DNA of 64,000 bases from an uncultured Hyphomicrobiales bacterium (GTDB taxonomy: Bacteria; Pseudomonadota; Alphaproteobacteria; Rhizobiales; Beijerinckiaceae), in contig CAINNX010000029.1 in the NCBI GenBank assembly GCA_903851305.1, positions 1-64,000 on the forward strand, given 5' to 3'. The translations under genes and the position numbers were made by a program. The notes under the pieces were generated by a model. It did not search any database, was not told the origin of the DNA, and was given only the letters and a program-made list of their open reading frames with translations. Positions 33,538 through 35,083 of this stretch are shown one piece after another. Within the stretch, counting starts at the first letter, position 1. Every line of letters begins with the position of its first letter.

Positions 33538-34017
33538 TCACCAGTGTGGAGTGGGCTCATGCCGTTCGAGCACTTCGGCCAACCTCCGCCGGGTCGGGCC
33601 TGTTGTCCCTTCTGGCAGGGCATCCAGAGGAAAAAAGCCGACGTCGATGATTTCTCGGGGGTCGGGCCGGTGGTTCGTTCGCTCAAAAGCCCGGATGATA
33701 TAGACCGCCACATGGTCGCGGGCCGACCAGCGGCGGTTGAGGTAGAGCCCGAATAGCTCTGGCGTGCCCTGTATGGCCAGCCCCGTCTCCTCCCAGAGTT
33801 CACGTGCCAGAGCCTCTGATGCCGTTTCTCCAGGCTCGATGGCCCCACCGGGCATGTGCCAGCCCGCTACATAAGAGTGGCGGATCAGGCAGACATGGCC
33901 TTCGCCGTCCAGTACCATGGCGCGCACGCCCATGGTCAGTGGGCGGGTGAGCCGTGCGACATAGGGCATGGCCCGGCTGACGGTTGCCCGGAGGGTCGCG
34001 ACAAAAAACCGCTTCAT
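33538..34017 (-). CDS. Nudix hydrolase
   Basis: 159 residues from the ATG at 34017. The Nudix box is complete: GGAIEPGETASEALARELWE followed by ETGL. Before it, LIRHSYVAGWHMPGG is typical of small Nudix enzymes that clean up nucleotide derivatives. The substrate cannot be predicted. The gene is divergent from mbfA, and the Irr-box-like palindrome lies between them, so it may share the iron response; this is inference. Confidence 0.88.
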   Translation of the reverse strand: MKRFFVATLRATVSRAMPYVARLTRPLTMGVRAMVLDGEGHVCLIRHSYVAGWHMPGGAIEPGETASEALARELWEETGLAIQGTPELFGLYLNRRWSARDHVAVYIIRAFERTNHRPDPREIIDVGFFPLDALPEGTTGPTRRRLAEVLERHEPTPHW

Positions 34018-34065
34018 TTTGTCCAATCCAGCTGGGGGCTGAGCCAAATAGTTCTTCCGCTCGTA

Positions 34066-34080
34066 TTAGAAGGATTCTAA
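34066..34080 (+). promoter_or_regulatory. Irr-box (ICE)-like palindrome upstream of mbfA
   Basis: TTAGAAGGATTCTAA is a perfect 6-3-6 inverted repeat. It resembles the iron-control element bound by Irr in Rhizobiales, which has TTAGAA and TTCTAA half-sites. It ends 31 bases before the mbfA start, where a repressor would block transcription. mbfA is a known Irr target in Agrobacterium and Bradyrhizobium. Confidence 0.72.
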
Positions 34081-34111
34081 ACAACTGGCGACCACTTGGA
34101 GGTGTCTTCCC

Positions 34112-35083
34112 GTGAAAAGCTTCGCCGATCTCAGCGCCCGTGAAATTCTCGCCGTCGCGATTGCGTCCGAGGAGGAGGACAGCCGCATCTACGCGACCTT
34201 CGCCGAAGACCTCGCCGAGCGCTACCCAGCCTCCGCCCAGGTGTTTGAGCAGATGGCCGATGAAGAGCGCGGGCATCGCCACGCCTTGCTCACCATGTAT
34301 GAGCAGCGCTTCGGCACCAACCTGCCGCCCATCCGCCGTGAAGACGTCAAAGGCTTTTTGAAGCGCCGCCCGATCTGGCTGACCAAAAACCTGTCGCTCG
34401 AGACGATCCGCAAGGAAGCGGAGAATATGGAATATCAGGCGGCCCGCTTTTACGAAAAAGCCGCCGCGCAGACGACGGATGTCGAGATCCGCAAATTGCT
34501 GGGTGATCTGGCTGAAGTCGAAAAGAGTCATGGCCGCCATGCAGGTGAGCTTGAAAAGCATTTGCTGACGGAAGAAGCGCGCGAAGAAGAGGCCTCGACC
34601 TCACATCGCATGTTCGTTTTGCAATATGTGCAGCCCGGTCTTGCGGGCCTCATGGATGGCTCTGTCTCCACACTCGCGCCTTTGTTTGCGGCTGCCTTTG
34701 CAACGCATAGCAATTGGGAAACATTTCTTGTTGGTCTTGCCGCGTCCATTGGTGCTGGTATTTCGATGGGCTTTGCCGAAGCTTTGTCAGACGATGGTGC
34801 GCTCACCGGGCGCGGGACGCCTTGGCTACGTGGAACGATTTGCGGCTTGATGACCACTTTGGGTGGTCTGGGTCATACCTTGCCCTATCTCGTGCCTGAC
34901 CGTTGGGATAATGCCTTCTGGATCGCGACAGCTCTTGCGGGTGTTGTGGTCTTTATCGAGCTCTGGATTATCGCCTGGGTGCGCGCGAAATATATGGATA
35001 CGCCTTTCTTGCAGGCGGTTTTCCAGATTGTGCTGGGCGGTGTGATCGTTCTTGCGGCCGGCATTCTGATCGGCGGCGCGTGA
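34112..35083 (+). CDS. mbfA: Membrane-bound ferritin-like iron exporter MbfA
   Basis: 323 residues. Residues 1-155 are a ferritin/rubrerythrin four-helix domain with the iron-binding pattern [35 protein letters not shown] and [12 protein letters not shown]. Residues 165-323 are a VIT1-type membrane domain with [20 protein letters not shown] and about five helices. This fusion is MbfA, which exports iron and protects against iron and peroxide stress. A ribosome site GGAGG precedes the ATG. The Irr-box-like palindrome upstream suggests expression when iron is plentiful. The phosphoesterase gene overlaps its end. Confidence 0.94.

Follow-up and report, generated by a model that had tools for sequence, protein, structure and literature searches.

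A very probable Irr box upstream of mbfA in an uncultured Beijerinckiaceae bacterium

For several related bacteria, control of mbfA by Irr has already been described. In S. meliloti, mutation of the half-site TTCTAA of the iron control element (ICE, Irr box) resulted in derepression of the mbfA promoter in low iron, and the same promoter was not repressed in an irr mutant of R. leguminosarum (PMC7540006). Repression by Irr was also described for mbfA and sufA of B. japonicum (PMC4902296). The earlier note on this DNA lists mbfA as Irr-repressed in related bacteria. The Irr protein of B. japonicum has two heme sites, namely a Cys-Pro motif and an HHH cluster (PMC11442138), and heme has to be bound at both for efficient degradation of Irr (PMC7762939). 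Binding of Irr to the mbfA promoter was shown in vitro for R. sphaeroides, in which the 5′ end of mbfA maps inside the Irr box (PMC3413700). Since the response of mbfA to iron in this species did not depend on Irr to any major extent (PMC3413700), the strength of Irr control varies between species.

The window analyzed here (the whole stretch of 64,000 nucleotides) contains the sequence TTAGAAGGATTCTAA upstream of mbfA. It is a perfect 6-3-6 inverted repeat, consisting of the arms TTAGAA (34066–34071) and TTCTAA (34075–34080) and the spacer GGA (34072–34074). All 12 arm positions (12/12) match the inverted repeat TTAGAA-N3-TTCTAA, which was used as the membership pattern of the ICE. Between the palindrome and the GTG start codon of mbfA (34112) lie 31 bases (34081–34111), and the gap shared with the divergent Nudix gene (34018–34111) has a length of 94 bp. 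Both the spacing and the location in the shared gap had been reported before from the sequence and were confirmed by these coordinates. With a probability of about 0.94, the palindrome is an ICE and the operator of mbfA, which would repress mbfA when iron is scarce and release it when iron is sufficient, leading to mbfA expression and the export of excess iron. The features of the locus are listed in Table 1.

Table 1. Features at the mbfA locus (positions refer to the window).
Feature	Position	Strand	Basis and remarks
Irr box (ICE), very probable operator of mbfA	34066..34080	.	Site, rarity, conservation; TTAGAAGGATTCTAA
Putative −10 of mbfA, TAGAAG, in the left arm of the box	34067..34072	+	Inferred from same-genus promoter-like conservation
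GGAGG, likely ribosome-binding site of mbfA	34098..34102	+	Sequence; 9 bases 5′ of the GTG
mbfA (GTG start), encoding a predicted iron exporter with a rubrerythrin-like and a VIT1 domain	34112..35083	+	NCBIfam NF045676, Pfam
Nudix hydrolase gene on the other side of the gap (divergent), Irr regulation not supported	33541..34017	-	Pfam NUDIX; ATG at 34017

The product of the reading frame at 34112–35083 scored 553 bits with the NCBIfam equivalog model NF045676 (MbfA), above the cut-off of 450, and carries a rubrerythrin-like domain fused to a VIT1 domain (Pfam). Its predicted role in iron export is adopted from relatives.

The conservation of the box was analyzed in public-genome mbfA loci with enough upstream sequence. 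A perfect box was found in 70 of 79 loci and a box with one mismatch in three more (3/79), resulting in 73/79 within one mismatch, and among the same-genus loci, including that of the window and L124 with its start codon corrected, 28 of 30 are within the same limit; both sets share organisms, mostly Bradyrhizobium and Beijerinckiaceae, and the counts are therefore not independent events. The boxes of the 79-locus set are located 12 to 47 bases 5′ of the start codon. In the same-genus alignment the 12 arm positions are near-invariant and the three central bases vary. Of 10 mbfA promoters taken from the order's other families, 7 carry a box that deviates in one position at most. In a few relatives that encode both Irr and MbfA, the box is not recognisable (L113) or weak (L118). 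In the loci L033, L095 and L113, mbfA adjoins the Nudix gene and no recognisable box was found within the 260–300 bp searched; here the control may have been lost or the start site may have moved.

Two Fur-family proteins are encoded in the genome, one of which is an Irr. It passes both NCBIfam Irr models with 210 bits (cut-offs 170 and 150) and contains an N-terminal Cys-Pro heme motif (SGCPVHE) and an HHH cluster (SKHHHF), as expected for the Cys-Pro (Bradyrhizobium) type. The GCP motif is present in all same-genus Irr proteins of the aligned set and the HHH cluster in all but one (HFH in L152); among the order-level relatives of the alignment only L136 has the GCP motif at the same place. 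A subgroup of the genus (G005, G016, G028, G029, G033, G034) has a divergent Irr that scores 145–150 bits and so falls short of the NCBIfam cut-off of 170. A perfect box 5′ of mbfA is retained in five of the six, the exception being G029.

The palindrome thus has what was used to assign a site to the ICE class, namely a position in an iron-gene promoter that is conserved in relatives and an Irr in the same genome. The earlier note had proposed a search for an irr gene and had named the lack of an encoded Irr as an outcome that would refute its proposal. Such a gene is present above both cut-offs and, together with the NCBIfam MbfA match and the box conserved before mbfA in relatives, strongly supports the proposed control via Irr.

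In the Bradyrhizobium-type set aligned on the box, the motif TTGACC is followed after 17 bp by TATATA, which ends immediately 5′ of the box. In the genus of the window, a block resembling GTGGAAAT, reading TTGACT in one subclade, is conserved 16–17 bp 5′ of TAGAAN, the latter being the left arm of the box. The promoter-like elements of this genus (L098–L127) are thus located about 9 bp closer to the box, and partly within it, compared to Bradyrhizobium (L030–L096). At the matching −35 position of the window (34044–34049) the sequence is CCAAAT, a poor match, and a scan of the gap for the sigma-70 consensus revealed no promoter on either strand. For these reasons the start site of mbfA can only be inferred. 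In both layouts of the alignments, the box covers the region where the polymerase must sit, as do the ICE over the core promoter of S. meliloti (PMC7540006) and the Irr box of R. sphaeroides, in which the mbfA 5′ end maps (PMC3413700).

By analogy with the described systems, Irr would accumulate in low iron, and hence low heme, and bind the box over the core promoter, keeping RNA polymerase off mbfA. With sufficient iron, heme would reach Irr at the Cys-Pro and HHH sites, and Irr would be degraded or leave the DNA. Once Irr is gone, mbfA would be expressed and excess ferrous iron exported.

Other explanations for the palindrome were considered. Counting any sequence, the window contains 29 perfect 6-3-6 inverted repeats compared to about 19 expected, and since such repeats are common, the palindrome alone is unremarkable and might have arisen by chance without any function. 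However, this exact sequence is expected 0.0008 times per 64 kb and was observed once in the window. Two perfect copies were found in the 2.76-Mb genome, compared to 0.010 (first-order Markov) to 0.035 (base composition) expected by chance. The site moreover stands at a known place before a known target, and the pattern of fixed arms and a free spacer refutes a chance origin, which is hardly credible. The reversed, uncomplemented pattern, used as a control, occurs once in this genome; in 37 same-genus genomes 49 box matches were found versus 12 for the control. A reading by a regulator other than Irr (Fur/Mur, RirA, IscR or Zur) is very improbable. It would draw on the second Fur-family protein of the genome, but this is Zur-like, and we know of no precedent for zinc control of mbfA. 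No Fur/Mur was found in the Fur-family search of the genome. The sole Rrf2 protein, with its gene next to cysK and a single cysteine, does not resemble RirA or IscR, so that no candidate for either was found. Fur/Mur, RirA and IscR were rejected as readers of the box on this inventory of Fur-family and Rrf2 proteins. In addition, the box carries the published Irr target half-site TTCTAA (PMC7540006).

With Irr as the probable regulator, the box could also act in both directions. In such a shared operator, Irr would repress mbfA and the divergent Nudix gene, perhaps with the GNAT gene behind it, the Nudix gene would be a true member of the regulon, as suggested in the earlier note, and it would be derepressed in the genus, with its GNAT neighbour, together with iron export. 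Iron overload would then be tied to the clean-up of nucleotides or cofactors. A distance of 48 bp separates the box from the Nudix start codon. The divergent pair is a fixed feature of the genus, as the two genes are neighbours in 35 of 35 genomes holding both. The box is nevertheless kept where the Nudix gene is missing, as in G001 (no Nudix match) and in Bradyrhizobium-type loci without Nudix beside mbfA. Conversely, it was found upstream of none of 21 Nudix homologues located away from mbfA (best matches with 38–51% identity, orthology likely but unproven); the best site has 3 mismatches and most have 4–6, similar to shuffled sequence. In the same-genus alignment, the promoter-like conserved block is confined to the mbfA side, and the Nudix side shows no conserved block that would point to a second promoter making use of the box. 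A literature search for Irr and Nudix returned, by title and abstract, no paper describing such a link. The box thus follows mbfA instead of being kept with Nudix independently of it, as a regulon member would require, and the suggestion was not borne out; a shared operator is rather unlikely. Because the distance to the Nudix start codon is so short, bound Irr may still affect the Nudix gene, and its co-repression as a side effect is possible.

For the identification of further Irr boxes, the genome was searched for the pattern allowing up to two mismatches. The second perfect copy (C87:4481–4495) is located 65 bp 5′ of a suf Fe-S assembly gene string, which encodes two cysteine desulfurases, SufB, SufC, SufD, a DUF59-type FeS assembly protein and a SufA-type protein. 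Elsewhere in the genus, all 27 perfect sites examined (27/27; one per genome, some of these genomes holding further perfect sites) precede either mbfA (20) or the same suf gene (7). Sites with two mismatches were found 18 times, 15 of them inside longer reading frames, two together 5′ of an iron-transport gene and one on C172. The two boxes of the iron-transport gene (PF10634) lie 129 and 17 bp upstream of it (L015:1501–1515 and 1613–1627; G000:C99:9393 and 9505). The nearest relative (L204) retains the two boxes; of four more relatives, three show a single degenerate match 5′ of the gene. From its upstream sequence, this gene is a possible third Irr target. For bacterioferritin, no match to TIGR00754, the one model used, was found in the genome (G000, rated 100% complete); together with the presence of mbfA, this suggests that excess iron is handled by export rather than Bfr storage.

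The Irr box before mbfA is very probably real but ordinary, since relatives of this bacterium are already well known to regulate mbfA in this way. In an uncharacterised Beijerinckiaceae lineage, the control of iron export and Fe-S assembly by Irr would thus be conserved, which adds a case and no new principle. The perfect Irr boxes are reduced to two targets in this small genome, in which no bacterioferritin or RirA was found, and MbfA is therefore likely to be the main relief route for excess iron.

Compared to the mbfA ICE of S. meliloti (PMC7540006), the box shares the half-site TTCTAA directly 5′ of mbfA, the overlap with the core promoter and, by analogy, the repression in low iron. The S. 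meliloti element was tested by mutating it and by use of an irr mutant, whereas the present one is known from its sequence alone; the Nudix gene divergent from mbfA is a further difference. With B. japonicum (PMC4902296) the locus has in common an mbfA gene that is repressed by Irr there and probably here, an Irr carrying both the Cys-Pro motif and the His cluster and, in related Bradyrhizobium genomes, the same core of the box. In B. japonicum a second target, bfr, is regulated along with mbfA; the present genome yielded no bfr, and the promoter of the Bradyrhizobium set lies further upstream relative to the box, by the 9 bp or so given above. As in R. sphaeroides (PMC3413700), mbfA is one of just two predicted Irr-box genes of the genome, the second target being ccpA in R. 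sphaeroides and the suf operon here.
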